Shown: piece after piece, positions 1 through 7,358 of the stretch
How the letters are laid out: the number at the start of each line of letters is the position of its first letter
Position numbering within the stretch: position 1 is the first letter of the stretch
Assembly: GCA_028818995.1 (NCBI GenBank)
Contig: JAPPMR010000548.1
Span: 1 to 7,358, forward strand
From: Candidatus Poribacteria bacterium
Lineage (GTDB): Bacteria; Poribacteria; WGA-4E; WGA-3G
DNA: 7,358 nt
Direction: 5' to 3'
Program-made: the position numbers and the translations under genes
Notes under the pieces: generated by a model
Databases searched by the model: none
What the model was told of the DNA's origin: nothing
What the model saw: only the letters and a program-made list of their open reading frames with translations

Positions 1-22
1 ATCCATAATTATTTATATACGG

Positions 23-94
23 TGGTAGGTTCGGTTTCCTAACCGAACCTTGTTTGGTCAGTTTATAGATGCGGTTAGGAAACCGCATCTACCA
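23..94. repeat. Paired inverted palindromic repeat (REP/BIME-like)
   Basis: Two perfect hairpins are arranged head to head. Hairpin 1 is 27-50: arms AGGTTCGGTT and AACCGAACCT with loop TCCT. Hairpin 2 is 66-91: an 11-bp stem with inner arms AGATGCGGTT and AACCGCATCT and loop AGGA. The 14-base cores CGGTTTCCTAACCG and CGGTTAGGAAACCG are exact reverse complements. The outer ends TGGTAG (23-28) and CTACCA (89-94) also match, so the whole segment is one large imperfect palindrome. It starts 29 bp after the stop of the dioxygenase gene and may block 3' exonucleases or end transcription. No T-run follows on the minus strand, so a classic intrinsic terminator is not supported. Membership of a dispersed repeat family is inferred from structure; only this pair is visible here. 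Confidence 0.8.
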
Positions 95-123
95 GGGAGT
101 GTGGGTATATTTTAGATTTCACT

Positions 124-945
124 TTAAGATGCTTTCTGTGCAGTGAATTTGAGTTCCGTTTGCCCGTGTAGTCCTGCTACAACAGGGAAGGTGCGTTCTC
201 CCTTTCCATCTTTAGTAACATATCTGACTTCTGGCGAAAAATAGGCGTAGAGTGCTGTGTTTCTCGGATTTGGTGATGCGTTAGGACCGGAACCGTGGAC
301 CATAAGGCTATGGAAAAACAGTGCGCTGCCTGCTGAAAGCGGGACATCCATCTGTTGTTTTGCAACTTCCTCGCGATCGGTGAGTTCTGCATCTTGTTGC
401 CGTGCGATTCCACCCCACTCTTGAACACCCCATAGGTGGCTACGCGGAACGACTTTAAAACAACCATTCTCTGGGGTAGCGTTGTTGAGGGCAATGCTGA
501 CAGTAACTAATCTCGGCGGTTCCATCGGCCAATATGCTGAATCCTGATGCAGCCCGTGTGATGAACCGTGAAAAGCAGGTTTGAACATTAAGGTACTTCT
601 AAAAAGGAGGAGGTCTTCCCCAATGAGGTTTTGAAGTACTGCTATAAGGTTCGGATGTTGTGCTAAATTCTTAAACACCTCTGAATATTGTCGCGTATTT
701 TCTGCTTTCCGCAGCACGGGTAATCTATTGCCTTGTGTTTCGTCTTTGGCAAAAGGTTCCTGTTGTACGTGCCTGCGTGCGACATCTGCCCGTTCCTTTT
801 CTGCATCTGATTCTTGACCTGCAGCAAACTGATGCAGCAGTTGAATCTCTGCTTGGCATTCTTCCACCTCTACAGGTGACATTAAGTTTTCAACAATGAG
901 ATAGCCTTCCTTCTCAAAAAAGGCTTTTTGTGCATTCTTATCCAT
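124..945 (-). CDS. Phytanoyl-CoA dioxygenase (PhyH) family protein
   Basis: This 273-aa protein belongs to the PhyH family of cytosolic Fe(II)/2-oxoglutarate-dependent oxygenases, which hydroxylate an organic substrate while decarboxylating 2-oxoglutarate. The iron triad is visible: H133 and D135 in GLHQDSAYW and the distal H217 in MVHGSG. R228 in PRNTALYAYF is the expected 2-oxoglutarate-binding arginine. The family's GxxxVVPxSH turn is present near residues 161-170 (GCFKVVPRSH). Length is normal for the family. The start at 945 is chosen because GGAGG sits 5 nt upstream (951-955); a 25-codon longer reading from 1020 would overlap the transporter gene and has no family support. Only 1 bp separates it from that gene's stop, so the two are probably translationally coupled. 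Substrate cannot be read from sequence, and PhyH paralogues vary widely. Confidence 0.93.
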   Translation of the reverse strand: MDKNAQKAFFEKEGYLIVENLMSPVEVEECQAEIQLLHQFAAGQESDAEKERADVARRHVQQEPFAKDETQGNRLPVLRKAENTRQYSEVFKNLAQHPNLIAVLQNLIGEDLLLFRSTLMFKPAFHGSSHGLHQDSAYWPMEPPRLVTVSIALNNATPENGCFKVVPRSHLWGVQEWGGIARQQDAELTDREEVAKQQMDVPLSAGSALFFHSLMVHGSGPNASPNPRNTALYAYFSPEVRYVTKDGKGERTFPVVAGLHGQTELKFTAQKAS

Positions 946-946
946 T

Positions 947-2392
947 TTATCCTCCGATGAGTCGTTTAATTTCCCATATAATACTTGAAATAGCAAATCC
1001 GATATAAACGGCTGAAGCAATGAACATCATTATAGTTGACATCGTTTTCGGTTTAGCAATTTTAGGTAAAAAGCGGTAGTTCATATACAGCGTAAGCGGT
1101 ACATAGAGTGCCATCGCAAAACCACCCATATATGCTGCGTTAAAGAGAAAACCGAGACCACTAACATTTAACCGTTCCATCACAAACGTAATTACGCATC
1201 CAGCGACAATCCAGATACCTACTATGAGCAGGTACCACCAACTCAATTCCCGTTTTTGTGCCCCCTTAAAGTTAGTATAGATAATATCTGATACAGAACG
1301 TCCCACACCATCAAGCAATGCCAGTTGTGTGCCGAAAAGGGTTGCAACACCAACTACTAAAAAGATACGGCGACCAAACTCTCCAAAACTTTTCCCTAAT
1401 ATGTCTGCTTCGTCGAAAATCAGCTGGCTCCTGTCAGGAACGATTCCTTCAGGATGTAAAACAGCGAGCGCACCGAAAATAAAAAGCAGAATTGTTAAGG
1501 TATTGAGTGCCCAAAAGAAGAGCATCTGATCGCGTTTGATGTAACCCCACCAGTCTTCAAAGCGTCGGCGGTTTTCTGCTGTTTCTTCAAAAAGAAAACC
1601 GGTTGCTGGAACTTTTTCTGTGCGCCCACGGAGCGGGTTGCGAAGACCTGGGACTCGCGCGCCCATTCCGATGTTTTTATCTCGAAGATAGAACGTATAG
1701 AATAGGTTTGCTGTGCCGCCTGCCCCTGCAAACACCAGTGCAATAAATAACGCTTTTACCGACATGTTCGGGGCTTTGTACCCGACATTTACTATTCCTG
1801 CTCCTAATTCTTTCCATGTATCCCAAGTACCGACCAAAATAGCAACGAGAATAAGTCCAATCGTTACAACGGCAACAAGGATTTCTATTGTGTGTTCTAC
1901 GGATTGATAAACCATTTTTGGTCCGAACAAAATGACTGAGGCGACTGCAAACGTTATTATTGTCCAGAAGGTATCTGAACCCCAAAATGTCCCAGCTTGC
2001 CATTTAGAGTTAAAAATGAGCGCTTTAAGCGCAGCCCCTGATTCACGCGCCCACCCTGGGGCAATCCACCCTATTACAATAAGGAGGATAAACAACGGAG
2101 CAAAACCTCGCCAAACACGGCTGTAACCTGTATACACGGTTTCGCCAGTAGCAATCGTCCATCTACCAACCTCAAAGTTGATCCAAAGTTGGAGAAATAC
2201 GCCGAGAACTGCTGCCCAAACCATGCTTGCGCCGTATTCTGCAGCGATGAGAGGCCAAATCACAATTTCACCAGCGCCAATAGATAAGCCAACCAAAATT
2301 GCCCCGGGACCTGCTATTTTCCAAAAAGGCAGTTGTTTTTCTGGTAAATCTATAGTTTTAAAGTCTTCAAGCGGTTCAAAAATTTTAGGCAT
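947..2392 (-). CDS. Nramp-superfamily transporter lacking canonical metal-binding motifs
   Basis: This 481-aa inner-membrane protein has about 11 hydrophobic helices (roughly 27-47, 55-75, 97-117, 142-157, 168-188, 213-233, 290-311, 343-362, 386-406, 415-437, 450-472) in the LeuT-type Nramp arrangement. GPG (28-30) and the unwound TM1 region (GLSIGAGE, 35-42) align with the Nramp TM1 signature, and NLFYTFYLRD (229-238) with TM6. The metal ligands are missing: the TM1 DPGN position reads G39-A-G-E42, and the TM6 M-P-H reads about G226-T-A228. A hydrophilic stretch of about 55 residues (235-289, Arg-rich, with FEETAENRRRFEDWW) separates TM6 from TM7 and makes it longer than usual Nramps (about 400-440 aa). 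The start at 2392 has AGGAG 5 nt upstream. It lies 33 bp after the dehydrogenase stop. Automatic annotation would say Mn/Fe transporter; I infer a different substrate. Confidence 0.85.
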   Translation of the reverse strand: MPKIFEPLEDFKTIDLPEKQLPFWKIAGPGAILVGLSIGAGEIVIWPLIAAEYGASMVWAAVLGVFLQLWINFEVGRWTIATGETVYTGYSRVWRGFAPLFILLIVIGWIAPGWARESGAALKALIFNSKWQAGTFWGSDTFWTIITFAVASVILFGPKMVYQSVEHTIEILVAVVTIGLILVAILVGTWDTWKELGAGIVNVGYKAPNMSVKALFIALVFAGAGGTANLFYTFYLRDKNIGMGARVPGLRNPLRGRTEKVPATGFLFEETAENRRRFEDWWGYIKRDQMLFFWALNTLTILLFIFGALAVLHPEGIVPDRSQLIFDEADILGKSFGEFGRRIFLVVGVATLFGTQLALLDGVGRSVSDIIYTNFKGAQKRELSWWYLLIVGIWIVAGCVITFVMERLNVSGLGFLFNAAYMGGFAMALYVPLTLYMNYRFLPKIAKPKTMSTIMMFIASAVYIGFAISSIIWEIKRLIGG

Positions 2393-2425
2393 TCCTTCTC
2401 CTCAAATAGACACGAGACATATTCT

Positions 2426-5365
2426 TTACATATTGGTATCCGATGATATTGCTTCACTTAACACTTCAATCGGATGTTTCGGTAGGATGCCGGTCCCGTG
2501 TTCAAGTTGGTGTCGGCAAGAAAATCCTGACGCTGTCAGCGTAAATTCCCCAGTTTTTTCTCGGATAGTTGGGAAAAGACGGAGTTCGCCAATGTTCATA
2601 GAAAGATCGTAGTGTGATTTTTCATATCCGAATGAACCTGCCATGCCGCAACAACTGGAGTCAATTACTGTGACATCATGTGCTTCTGGTAACTCAAGCA
2701 TTTGCAACACTGGTTGGATACCAACAAGTGCTCTCTGGTGACAGTGCCCATGTAACAAAATATCGCGCTGTTTTGCCTCATAAGTAAGTGGGAGTTCACC
2801 ATTTTCATGAGTTTGGATCAGAAATTCTTCCAGTGAGTAGGTGCTCTCAGCAACTCGTTTTGCTTTAGTTGTATTAATTAGTTCAACATAATCGTCAGTC
2901 AAGGCAGAGGTACAACTTGGTTCACATCCGACAATTGGAATTCCCGCCTCCGCATAGGCATGCAGATGTTCAATATTATAATTTGCGTATTCAATGGCTT
3001 TGTCAAGCATGCCCTCAGAGATAAGCGGTCTACCGCAACATCGTTTCTTCGGCAAGATTACCTCAAATCCAGCAGACTCTAAAACGTGTACTGCTGCCTT
3101 TCCGATATTGGGTTCGCTAAAATTCATAAAGGTATCGTGAAACAACACAACTTTTTTGTTAGAAGTTTGTGGTGACTTGCGTTTTTTGAACCATTTTTCA
3201 AAGGATTGGTGAACGAAGGTTGGCATATCTCGGCGGCGATCAACCCCGAGTAGTTTTTCAGCCAGCCATTTGGAAAGTGGGTTATTCGTTGCCCAATTGG
3301 AGAGTGGTGCAAACGCTGATCCCAAAACGGCAAGTGATCCAATTTCTCCGAAAAGGCGATTACGCAACGGAAACCCATTTGCTTTTCGGTAATGTGCAAG
3401 CATCTCATATTTGATTTTCGCCATGTCCACATTAGAGGGGCATTCTGCCTTACACGCTTTACAACCGAGACATAGGTCAAGCACATCATAGAGTCGGTCA
3501 CTGGTGAAATCTTTGTTTGGCAAAGCACCAGAAATAACTGAGCGGAGCGCGTTGGCACGCCCGCGTGTAGAGTGTTCCTCTTCTCGTGTAGCGATGAAGG
3601 AGGGGCACATGGTGCCAGTTAGGGTTTTACGGCACGCACCGACTCCATTACACATCTCGATTGCCCTGCCAAATCCGTCTTGTGCAGAATAATCGAAATA
3701 GGTATCAATTTTAATGGTGTTGTATTTTTCGCCGAATCGGAGGTTTTCAGTCATCGGGGGAGGGTCAATAATTTTACCGGGATTCATAATACCATCTGGG
3801 TCGAAAGCGTTTTTGACCTCACGGAGTGCTTGATAAATCTGTGGACCGAACATGCTCTCAATCCATTCACTTCGGACAAGTCCATCTCCGTGTTCTCCAC
3901 TCATTGCACCGCCAAGGTCCATAAGTAGATCGCGCACCTCGCGTGCGATATTATGCATTTTATGTATATCTGCTTCGGATTTGAGATTGATAATCGGGCG
4001 GTTGTGGAGTAATCCAACACTGGCGTGTGCATAGTAGGAGGCAGTTGTGTCGTGTTTTGTGACAATTTCATCAAATCGGCGGACATATTTAGGTAAATTC
4101 TTTATGGGAACAGCAGCATCTTCCACAAAACCTATCGGTTTGGCATCGCCCTTCATTCCCATGAGTAAGCCGAGTCCTGCTTTTCGGGTTTCCCACACAC
4201 GTGCCTTTTCTTCAGCAGTAAAACATCGTACATACGCATACCCGAATTCAGCACTTTTCAAGGTTTTTTCGAGATGGTCAATCTGTTCATGTAGTTCGCT
4301 CTCTGTTTCACCGTAAAACTCAACCGCGAGAAGTGCTTCCGGTTCGCCTTCAATAAAACTGGTCAGTCGTGAAAACTCCAAAGAGCCTTGTGCCATACCA
4401 AGTATTGTTTTGTCAATCAGCTCAACGGCGGTTGGATTGCACGCTAAGATAGGTTGCATCGCCTCCATAGAAGTGATGAGCGACTTAAAATGAACAACAC
4501 ACAGACAGGTCATTTTGGGGACGGGAACGAGATTTATTTTCGCCTCAACAGTGGTTGCCAGTGTGCCTTCGGACCCGACAACAATTTTCGCGAGACTGAA
4601 AGGGTGATGGGCATCGCACCCGTCACGACGGTAGGGCGTTACCTCTTTTGAACCTGCATCCGAGACATATTCATCAAGATTATAACCTGCAACTCTACGT
4701 AAAATTCGGGGATAACGTTTACGGATTTCATCTGCATTCTCATCGCAGATTCTGCAGAGTTCGTGATATATGTGTGCTTCTAAGGAATTTCCCTGCTTTT
4801 TTGATGCGACTTCAGGAAATGATAGGGGGGCTGCTGTTATTTCATCGCCGTTGGCAAGCACAAGGTCTAACGACATCACATGGTCAATCGTTTTACCGTA
4901 GATAAGTGAGTGAGAACCTGCGGAGTTATTACCGATAGTGCCTCCGACGTTTGCACGGCTACTCGTAGCAACATCAGGGGCGTACATCAATCCGTGTGGT
5001 TTGAGTTGGTGATTTAACTCATCAAGAACAATGCCGGGTTGGACGTTTGCCCAACGTTCATCAGCGTTTACCTCAATCAGTTGATTCATATACTTGGACA
5101 TGTCAAGGACGATTGCTTTGCCGACGCTTTGTCCCGCGAGACTTGTTCCGCCCCCGCGAGGAAGAATAGGGATTTTACGTTCAGCTGCGATCTGTACCGT
5201 TTTGATTACATCTTGTTTGTGTTTGGGAACAACAACCCCTATCGGTTCAATTTGGTAGAGGCTTGCATCTGTGCTTTAGAGTGCTTTTGAGTATGCATCA
5301 AAGCGCACCTCTCCCTCAAGTTCTTTAGAAAGAAGTTGTTCTAATGCTGGTTCGGAATTCTGCAT
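2426..5365 (-). CDS. FAD-linked oxidase / Fe-S fusion dehydrogenase (GlcD-GlcF-like), interrupted by in-frame TAA at codon 30
   Basis: The full reading is 979 codons, close to fused 2-hydroxyacid dehydrogenases such as E. coli YdiJ (about 1018 aa). Numbering is from ATG 5365. The FAD_binding_4 (PCMH) domain, about 40-240, shows PRGGGTSLAGQ (69-79) and GTIGNNSAGSHS (142-153). The FAD-oxidase C domain, about 280-535, shows HASVGLLHNRP (447-457) and SGEHGDG (489-495). Iron-sulfur cysteines follow: C572, C578, C587, then CxxCxxCxxxCP at 632-642. Two CCG modules follow (CCG 776-778 with C814/C818; HCHQ 874-877, CCG 905-907, C950). The likely role is oxidising glycolate, D-lactate or D-2-hydroxyglutarate and passing electrons through the clusters to a membrane acceptor. 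Start 5365 has AGGA upstream. TAA at 5276-5278 replaces a tyrosine expected in EGEVRFDAYSKAL-(Y)-STDAS. No ATG, GTG or TTG occurs in frame until 5101. First gene of a three-gene operon. Confidence 0.9.
5276..5278 (-). other. In-frame premature TAA stop in dehydrogenase gene
   Basis: The minus-strand codons read GCA CTC TAA AGC ACA GAT GCA AGC. Both sides stay in the same frame and both match the family: EGEVRFDAYSKAL before, STDASLYQIEP after. A single base change from TAT or TAC would give the stop. This argues for a nonsense substitution, a base-call error, or recoding, and against a frameshift. Confidence 0.9.
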
Positions 5366-5525
5366 CTGTTTCCTGTTCCTGTGCGTTTGATCTTAAGGGT
5401 ATAGTATGTTAGACAATGGTATACTAAAAAAGGTGTAGAATTAACATTTCTCAAGTGGCTTAGGTGCCAAAATAGACAAGGGTTCACTTGAAAGGTTTGC
5501 ATTATGTTTACTTGATCTCTGTCGT
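5366..5525 (-). promoter_or_regulatory. Intergenic leader upstream of dehydrogenase operon
   Basis: This 160-bp gap separates the exported protein from the three-gene operon and must hold the operon's promoter unless transcription reads through. The ribosome site (AGGAA, about 5 nt from ATG 5365) is clear. An inverted repeat TAGTAT (5402-5407) / ATACTA (5421-5426), which on the minus strand also gives two TATACC copies about 19 bp apart, is a possible operator. A wider inverted repeat, TCAAGTG (5451-5457) / CACTTGA (5485-5491), could be a weak terminator for the upstream gene, but no T-run follows. I found no convincing -35/-10 pair. Confidence 0.3.
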
Positions 5526-6041
5526 TTAATCTGACTTTATGAGTATCGGTTTTTCGTTCCCCTTCCATTCATAAATCTCTATCGGATTTTTTTGAAATTC
5601 TTTAAACGCGGACTCCTTATCCAGATTCGGATCGGGCGATTTATGAAGTTCAAGACGAACTTTTACCCATGAATCCCATCCATACTTGGCTGCATGCATT
5701 AATACCCTAACTTTCACATGAGTTATAGCCGATTTGACTTTTTCATATTCTAAATCATGTTTATAGGTAAGACGCACGTTGATACGACCACCCGTATCAA
5801 GATATGATACCTTGTAACCCAAAATCTCATAAGCTTTTTCTTGTGGAGATGGTTTATATCTATCCATCTCAAGGGCAAGCCATTGCATGCGCGTCGGCGC
5901 GTAGCGTTTAAGTCCTTCTTCAAGATGGGGCTGATTGAAAAGGTCAGCACCAAGATTAAACTTTTCTTGTGCCCAACCCCCAGCTAAAAATATAAGGATA
6001 CTTCCAAGTATTGTTAACAAAACTCTATATCGTTTTTTCAT
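5526..6041 (-). CDS. Small exported protein of unknown function
   Basis: This 171-aa protein is not one I recognise. It begins with MKKRYR, a hydrophobic stretch (about residues 8-20) and GGWAQ, which reads as a Sec signal peptide with probable cleavage near A24. The mature part (about 147 residues) is charged and soluble, with no cysteine and no visible catalytic motif. Residues 76-96 and 105-135 alternate polar and hydrophobic residues in a way that suggests beta strands. The start at 6041 is preferred over the in-frame ATG at 6116 because it puts the signal peptide at the N-terminus and has a purine-rich AAGAGA upstream. The 25 codons before it belong to a toxin-gene stub. Function is unknown, and nothing links it to the dehydrogenase operon 160 bp downstream. 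Confidence 0.7.
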   Translation of the reverse strand: MKKRYRVLLTILGSILIFLAGGWAQEKFNLGADLFNQPHLEEGLKRYAPTRMQWLALEMDRYKPSPQEKAYEILGYKVSYLDTGGRINVRLTYKHDLEYEKVKSAITHVKVRVLMHAAKYGWDSWVKVRLELHKSPDPNLDKESAFKEFQKNPIEIYEWKGNEKPILIKSD

Positions 6042-6116
6042 TGTGATTCTCTTTTGATAACGTAACAAATATCGGATCAATCGCCAGTTTAAGTTTTCGT
6101 CAAGTAGAACACGCAT
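6042..6116 (-). pseudogene. 5' remnant of DUF5615 PIN-like toxin gene
   Basis: Starting at ATG 6116 the reading is MRVLLDENLNWRLIRYLL. This matches the conserved opening of DUF5615 PIN-like proteins (typically M-(R/K)-(V/I)-L-L-D-E-N-L-P), whose early aspartate belongs to the acidic metal site. Resemblance ends after about 18 residues. The remaining roughly 90 residues of the usual toxin are absent from this frame and were not found in the bases just downstream. The reading continues in frame into the exported-protein gene. The start overlaps the 3' end of the DUF433 gene by 28 nt, as is usual for antitoxin-toxin pairs, and GGAAG lies about 10 nt upstream. Probably a deletion or insertion removed the toxin body. 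The short match limits certainty. Confidence 0.6.
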
Positions 6117-6685
6117 GTGGTATTGTCTTCCGATTTTATCGTGTTTACTGTCTCAAATACCGTTTCCAACGCGAACTCTAAAAATGCAATTGCCTGCTCT
6201 CTCGACACAGAAGGGAATCCATCAAGAAAGTCATCAAGACTATCTCCTGCTTTTAGATGATCAATTAGCGACTTAATCGGCACACGGGTCCCCATAAACA
6301 CTGGCTCGCCGCCGTGAATGTCGGGGTCTTGGTTTATCATTGCTTTGTATAAACGAAATGCTGTCCACTCGGTATCTAAATTTTGCCGAGAACTTTGATA
6401 ACCGCTTTTGTAGCACCGTGCTGGGGGACACACTTCTGACATAAGTGGAACATTTATCGCTTGAGATAACTTATCACTTATGTCTTCAATAACCCTTCCG
6501 TCGCGTTCCGTCTGCTCCATTTTTGATTTTACTTGGACATATAGTTCATCATTTCTCACTCGCTCCAAAAAATCTTCAGACATTTTTTTAGACACCTGAT
6601 CACTATATTCCAAGAACGGATAATCTTCTTTTAGAATACGCTCCAGTTCATTTACAATTAATGGGTTTTCGTGTAGTTTTTCCAT
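6089..6685 (-). CDS. DUF433 domain antitoxin-like protein with N-terminal extension
   Basis: This 198-aa protein ends in a clear DUF433 domain (about 117-180): INQDPDIHGGEPVFMGTRVP, then an amphipathic AGDSLDDFLDGFPSVSREQA segment. DUF433 proteins are small, usually 70-90 aa, have a winged-helix-like fold, and are commonly the antitoxin next to DUF5615 PIN-like toxins. Here about 115 extra residues precede the domain. They are highly charged and mostly helical (1-80), then hold a short Cys-containing linker (CPPARC, 86-91). I do not recognise this part. Start 6685 is chosen for AAGGA 6 nt upstream, over the longer reading from 6730. A stand-alone DUF433 could start at M116 (6338-6340), but no ribosome site is seen there. 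The partner toxin gene overlapping its end is only a stub, so this may be an orphan antitoxin. Confidence 0.85.
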   Translation of the reverse strand: MEKLHENPLIVNELERILKEDYPFLEYSDQVSKKMSEDFLERVRNDELYVQVKSKMEQTERDGRVIEDISDKLSQAINVPLMSEVCPPARCYKSGYQSSRQNLDTEWTAFRLYKAMINQDPDIHGGEPVFMGTRVPIKSLIDHLKAGDSLDDFLDGFPSVSREQAIAFLEFALETVFETVNTIKSEDNTTCVFYLTKT

Positions 6686-6800: not shown

Positions 6801-7025
6801 TTATTTTTTCTCTTTGAGTTTATTTATCTCTTTCTTTAGGTATTCGATTTCATTTGTGAGTCTTTTGTGTCTTCTATTTATAGCGAGTGTGATGCAGCCG
6901 CCTGTGATGATGATGAGGAGTGCGGTAGTTCCTAATAAATATAATGCGACGATTGTAGCAATCGTGCCGGCAACAAAACCGATGATTTTAAGGAGTACAT
7001 TTCGTATTTTCTCTGCCATCATCAT
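6801..7025 (-). CDS. Small membrane protein with C-terminal coiled coil
   Basis: This 74-aa hypothetical protein has a hydrophobic region at residues 9-50, either one long helix or a two-helix hairpin broken near LGTT (31-34). A basic stretch RRHKR (51-55) follows, then a charged helix to the end. Within the last part, L56, I60, L63, I67 and L70 fall at 4-3-4-3 spacing, a good coiled-coil heptad. The basic stretch would keep the C-terminus in the cytoplasm by the positive-inside rule. The N-terminus is MMMAEK; any of the three ATGs could be used and no strong Shine-Dalgarno is seen upstream. I recognise no family. Composition far from random (clean membrane span plus heptads) is the reason to call it real. 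Confidence 0.55.
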   Translation of the reverse strand: MMMAEKIRNVLLKIIGFVAGTIATIVALYLLGTTALLIIITGGCITLAINRRHKRLTNEIEYLKKEINKLKEKK

Positions 7026-7188: not shown

Positions 7189-7289
7189 GTATAGTAAAAC
7201 CTACATCAGGGTTATTTAGTTTTCAATATTTTTGATGTTTTTTTGCTATGACGTTAATTTAATGTGTTGCCATCTTGTCCGCGTCTTTA

Positions 7290-7352
7290 GTCCCGTAGGG
7301 ACAATATGTTTATAGAAAAATGTTATCTACCTCTCTTGAGTTCCGTAGGAAC
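7290..7352. repeat. Two short hairpin repeats spaced 50 nt apart, running to the window edge
   Basis: GTCCC-GTA-GGGAC (7290-7302) and GTTCC-GTA-GGAAC (7340-7352) are 5-bp hairpins with the same GTA loop, starting exactly 50 nt apart. They differ by a paired C-to-T and G-to-A change that keeps the stem. Flanks also agree: TCTTTAG before the first, TCTTGAG before the second. The second copy is cut by the window end. The rest of 7026-7289, apart from the promoter and stem-loop listed, shows no gene. Confidence 0.6.
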
Positions 7353-7358
7353 GGCATA

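Follow-up and report, generated by a model that had tools for sequence, protein, structure and literature searches.

In a genome of Candidatus Poribacteria, the reading frame of a flavin- and iron-sulfur-containing dehydrogenase is interrupted at its thirtieth codon by TAA. The question raised by this locus is whether the gene has been lost, whether a base has been misread, or whether the codon is translated. The stretch of DNA that was analysed (the window) comprises 7,358 nucleotides (contig JAPPMR010000548.1). Poribacteria are known from the literature as symbionts of sponges; three passages of PMC8546597 treat Tethybacterales bins and methods. The features of the interrupted gene, all on the minus strand, are as follows:

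2426..5365, minus strand: dehydrogenase gene with FAD, 4Fe-4S and CCG parts in a YdiJ-like layout; 979 codons, broken at codon 30.
5276..5278, minus strand: in-frame TAA as the thirtieth codon; relatives that cover the site carry tyrosine here (translation and alignment).
5380-5377 and 5374-5371, minus strand: two AGGA motifs, a likely ribosome site, just 5' of the ATG at 5365 (sequence).
5129..5155, minus strand: GGGTSLAGQ loop, residues 71-79, lost with a start at 5101 (sequence and alignment).
5099..5101, minus strand: next in-frame start ATG, residue 89, with no visible ribosome site (sequence).

Translation of the minus strand from 5365 to 2426 yielded 979 codons and a terminal TAA, codon 30 being the sole internal stop. 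With X inserted at the stop, the frame matched the Pfam families FAD_binding_4, FAD-oxidase_C, Fer4_8, Fer4_17 and CCG; it thus has the layout of the YdiJ-type fused FAD/Fe-S oxidoreductases, in which FAD_binding_4, FAD-oxidase_C, Fer4 and CCG parts are carried on a single chain. The top NCBIfam model was the YdiJ D-2-hydroxyglutarate dehydrogenase (NF049975). Its score of 641 bits fell short of the cut-off of 1350, which places the protein outside that equivalog, and the match therefore does not fix the substrate; we infer that it is a D-2-hydroxyacid. The GlpC model PRK11168 exceeded its cut-off (295.8 vs. 278) over residues 626-974 only, and another GlpC model stayed below its own (209.9 vs. 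279.9). The passing of PRK11168 is probably why two of the related proteins (P0024 and P0036) bear the name anaerobic glycerol-3-phosphate dehydrogenase subunit C. As reported in PMC9504171, the YdiJ enzymes from E. coli and Pantoea ananatis combine GlcD and GlpC layouts and act on D-2-hydroxyglutarate; FAD and a 4Fe-4S cluster are reported there for YdiJ. The present protein shares with YdiJ the GlcD-type FAD domain and, after it, the GlpC-like half on one chain of about 1000 residues; unlike YdiJ, it scores below the YdiJ cut-off and has a stop at codon 30. Full-length relatives were found in Candidatus Poribacteria genomes, the nearest being 97% identical. In one orthologue (locus L131, genome G022), the Fe-S and CCG parts are separated by roughly 68 additional residues, inserted in frame, which form imperfect repeats rich in proline and glycine.

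Conservation of the interrupted site was assessed in an alignment of 198 rows, namely 78 loci on named contigs (the best of 105 relatives) and 120 proteins (the best 120 of 7997). The column at codon 30 contained 197 tyrosines and one gap. Tyrosine was present in 120/120 of these proteins and in 77/77 of the loci that cover the site; the remaining locus, L100, is a fragment that falls short of codon 30 and was left out of the 77. The codons of 75 loci were read by script (44 use one tyrosine codon and 31 the other), and L105 and L107 were read by eye as protein. Because the protein and locus sets share genomes, these counts are not independent. All 30 oriented loci of related genomes had tyrosine at codon 30 and a frame open through the site. 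Across the 979 positions, 298 columns were conserved at ≥98% and 185 were invariant; the stop occupies one of the invariant ones. With this invariant column, and with no other interruption in the 979 codons, it is not the kind of stop that a random frame contains by chance. The preliminary description had placed the TAA at a conserved tyrosine of a 979-codon gene, had called the frame open and family-like on both sides, and had proposed a comparison with orthologues. The translation and the 197 covering relatives agree with it, and the frame proved to be full-length and homologous to its relatives. The relatives' genomes read at the DNA level (30 + 3) included none with a stop before the end of the gene (0/33). 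Internal stops suspected elsewhere were discarded: those in G021 and G035 were the genes' own terminators, the frames in G049 and G053 were open across the gene (991 and 977 codons), and none was present in L072 and L076, the counterparts by coordinates for G044 and G036.

The position of the native start determines whether the TAA lies within the gene at all. The sequence upstream of the ATG at 5365, CACAGGAACAGGAAACAG, contains AGGA, as the preliminary description had stated of a ribosome site there. No ATG, GTG or TTG occurs between 5278 and 5101, so that the ATG at 5101 is the first start after the stop; in the sequence that precedes it, GCAATCGTCCTTGAC, no ribosome site was visible by eye, again as had been claimed. 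A native start at 5101 was considered and rejected, since the relatives' frames extend upstream of codon 30. The site was inside the frame in 30/30 oriented loci, in 77/77 covering loci (of 78), and in the 120 best proteins; orthologues that start at the equivalent of codon 89 were looked for, and none was found among the loci and listed proteins. The lesion therefore lies downstream of the native start. A promoter scan of 5300-5600 returned no sites, a result that says little, as shuffled sequences averaged 0.6. The window contained no tRNA.

Should ribosomes restart at 5101, 88 residues would be removed, leaving a product of 891 residues. With this start, the FAD_binding_4 match covered profile positions 50-137 instead of 1-137 (of 139) and its score fell from 137.6 to 76.5 bits, about one third of the domain being gone; the FAD-oxidase_C, Fer4 and CCG matches were unaffected. 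The GGGTSLAGQ loop, at residues 71-79, lies upstream of residue 89 and would be dropped, as had been predicted. It is invariant at 7/9 positions and aligns to a similar loop in the solved structure of a glycolate oxidase (9qgz).

In the VAO/GlcD fold, this loop holds the pyrophosphate of FAD. The shortened Pfam match and the 7/9 invariant positions of the loop support the earlier expectation that a product begun at 5101 would have a defective flavin domain. That translation does restart there and that the 891-residue product is functional is consequently considered highly improbable. The ATG is in frame, and methionine is the commonest residue at this position (172/198 aligned rows), although structure alone could explain that preference. 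The frames of relatives, the ribosome site that was not seen, and the missing loop and FAD_binding_4 positions 1-49 all weigh against such a restart.

Upstream of the dehydrogenase gene, the alignments to relatives ended at 5380 in 6/8 cases, at 5403 in L036, and at 5430 in L034. The region 5431-6064 was spanned by no alignment in any of the eight relatives. It holds most of a 171-residue frame (5526-6041) that has no family and only weak matches (22-37% identity) in 6/8 genus genomes. A DUF433 gene and, after it, the first part of a second gene (MRVLLDENLNWRL...) occupy 6041-6685; the likeness of the second gene to its relatives stops near 6067. The frame of this partner, which is presumably DUF5615, continues in L035 and departs near the same place in L085. 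Short inverted or repeated motifs were noticed by eye near the ends of the window (1-120 and 7270-7358), around GGTTCGGTTTCCTAACCGAACC, and CCGTAGGGAC / CCGTAGGAAC.

Recoded stops are known from selenocysteine, pyrrolysine and reassigned codes, and the present TAA resembles them in being internal to a conserved frame that is open on either side. It differs from them in that TAA is also the terminator of this gene and of its neighbors, and in that none of the relatives examined has it at this site. All six reading frames of the window taken as genes, the dehydrogenase included, end in TAA, although two of them (5526-6041 and 6801-7025) match no family and are perhaps not genuine genes. Within the window, then, TAA is an ordinary terminator. 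The terminators of the 30 orthologues were TAA in 20, TAG in six, and TGA in four. A stop at codon 30 was present in 0/197 covering relatives, and no Rfam match reached its gathering score in the window. As TAA ends the window's genes and 20 of these orthologues, it acts as an ordinary stop here, and the decoding of this codon as an amino acid, by recoding or by programmed readthrough, is regarded as very doubtful indeed. Even less credence is given to the idea that the strain usefully suppresses or reads through TAA; in that case the 979-residue dehydrogenase would work, and expression of the transporter and dioxygenase genes that follow it would depend on readthrough.

The choice thus lies mainly between a genuine loss and a faulty sequence. 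The nearest genome (G001; locus L083) corresponds to Candidatus Poribacteria isolate RHO2_bin_17 (JAPPIG010000082.1); to it the window aligned without gaps over 123-5380 (5258 bases) at 95.8% identity. Of the 298 columns conserved at ≥98%, the copy in the window differs at only one, the stop itself. Under the same scoring, 11 relatives from the genus showed no departures in seven cases, one in three, and three in one. The result leans slightly on the threshold, since E426K, which is private to the window lineage, lies in a column (E in 193/197 letters) just under 98%. The dN/dS of the dehydrogenase gene between the window and the nearest genome was 0.055, and the 14 remaining pairwise comparisons within the set of six sequences ranged over 0.042-0.065. 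Codon 30 was omitted from this calculation and from the counts of private changes, which were made by parsimony only at sites where four outgroups agree. In the dehydrogenase gene, the ratio of non-synonymous to synonymous private changes was 9:28 in the window lineage and 3:24 in the nearest genome. This excess points toward relaxed constraint, but it is not significant (Fisher p = 0.21). Most of the nine replaced positions also vary among relatives, the exception being E426K. The corresponding ratios were 3:3 and 1:3 in the dioxygenase gene, so that the dehydrogenase is not alone in its slightly raised share of replacements, and 0:1 and 0:0 in the transporter gene.

These figures also bear on the age of the stop. 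A simple binomial model, which takes a selected dN/dS of 0.055 and the parsimony counts and ignores recombination, gave P(N ≤ 9) = 0.147 for a gene free of constraint over 10% of the lineage and a value of 0.033 when that share was raised to 15%; it indicates only that the stop is young, if real. Identity to the nearest genome is uneven: three parts of the dehydrogenase gene are at 93.5-94.4%, the transporter gene at 99.1%, a pattern in the aligned sequence that suggests recombination and weakens the dating accordingly. With one departure in 298 columns and a dN/dS within the range of the relatives, the stop is either very young or not real.

The second of these readings holds that the TAA is an error of base-calling, assembly or strain consensus and that the gene is intact in the living cell. 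It is a possibility, albeit one considered rather unlikely. The rest of the gene resembles genes under strong selection, and the absence of a second clear lesion suits a base error just as well as a recent mutation. In addition, the Poribacteria relatives that were found are nearly all labelled as metagenome-assembled genomes, and the same presumably holds for the window. Against an error, no other signs of poor sequence were seen in the 5258 gap-free bases, and the two genes that follow the dehydrogenase align end to end with the nearest genome. Among the possible single-base changes in the dehydrogenase gene, 4.2% create a stop, whereas 21.9% fall on one of the ≥98% columns and change its residue; a noisy assembly should accordingly show several changes at such columns, and none was seen beside the stop. 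A lone error at this codon is still plausible.

The genes that follow the dehydrogenase form a cluster with it:

947..2392, minus strand: gene for a metal transporter of the Nramp family, which follows the dehydrogenase gene at a distance of 33 bases; full-length alignment to the nearest genome.
124..945, minus strand: gene of the phytanoyl-CoA dioxygenase (PhyH) family, next in line behind Nramp; full-length alignment to the nearest genome.

All three genes lay within the alignment in 7/8 relatives; in the eighth (L033) only the dehydrogenase gene did, and its genome (G004) has an Nramp match on a separate contig. The Nramp and PhyH genes are each preceded by a ribosome-site-like sequence of their own; notwithstanding these, the early stop could be polar on both. 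In the genome G010, which is a single contig, the Nramp gene (L082, 8952-10413) is split into two frames at about 9265, apparently by a frameshift that would be a further lesion or an error in the same cluster.

The dehydrogenase was surveyed in 59 genomes, 18 of them in the genus. G008 and G009 (90% and 95% complete) contained only weak matches, which cover the protein in part and are ~25-27% identical to it there, and G011 contained a fragment at a contig end. Searches for the neighboring genes covered seven genomes for Nramp and five for PhyH, the 18 genus genomes having been covered for the dehydrogenase. A close Nramp match was absent from G008 and G009 (best 31%), i.e. from 2/7 genomes searched, and a PhyH match at 1e-60 was absent from the same two of the five. 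The cluster is therefore seemingly missing from 2/18 genus genomes, with the reservation that assemblies are incomplete; its absence from G008 and G009 could reflect an assembly gap or an original absence. As a close dehydrogenase copy is missing in 2/18, its loss may be tolerated.

Of the three readings that the preliminary description had offered, recent inactivation and base error both fit the data, and a recoded stop is disfavored by the TAA terminators and by its occurrence in 0/197 relatives. Since the rest of the window shows no sign of poor sequencing, inactivation is preferred over error, and we consider it likely that the dehydrogenase gene carries a recent loss-of-function nonsense mutation. 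In one lineage of Candidatus Poribacteria, such a mutation would inactivate the first member of the three-gene cluster (dehydrogenase, Nramp and PhyH). Translation from 5365 would terminate after 29 residues; a restart at the ATG about 175 bases downstream, at 5101, where no ribosome site is seen, would be weak at best and would yield a product devoid of the FAD loop. The cell would then be without the enzyme, and the two downstream genes might be expressed less through polarity. The TAA may also be one variant at a polymorphic site, taken by chance into the consensus of this assembly.

The gene resembles an ordinary recent bacterial nonsense pseudogene in having a single disabling lesion, judged against intact orthologues with tyrosine at this codon, in a frame that is otherwise orthologous and conserved; it differs in showing no clear further decay yet. 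The finding is thus that of a single, isolated and probably recent nonsense codon, and an ordinary one. It also serves as a warning, as a gene caller would probably begin at 5101 and call the 891-residue protein complete. Neither the loss nor this warning alters general understanding. If the stop is real, a conserved dehydrogenase would have been caught at the moment of its loss in a lineage of Poribacteria.
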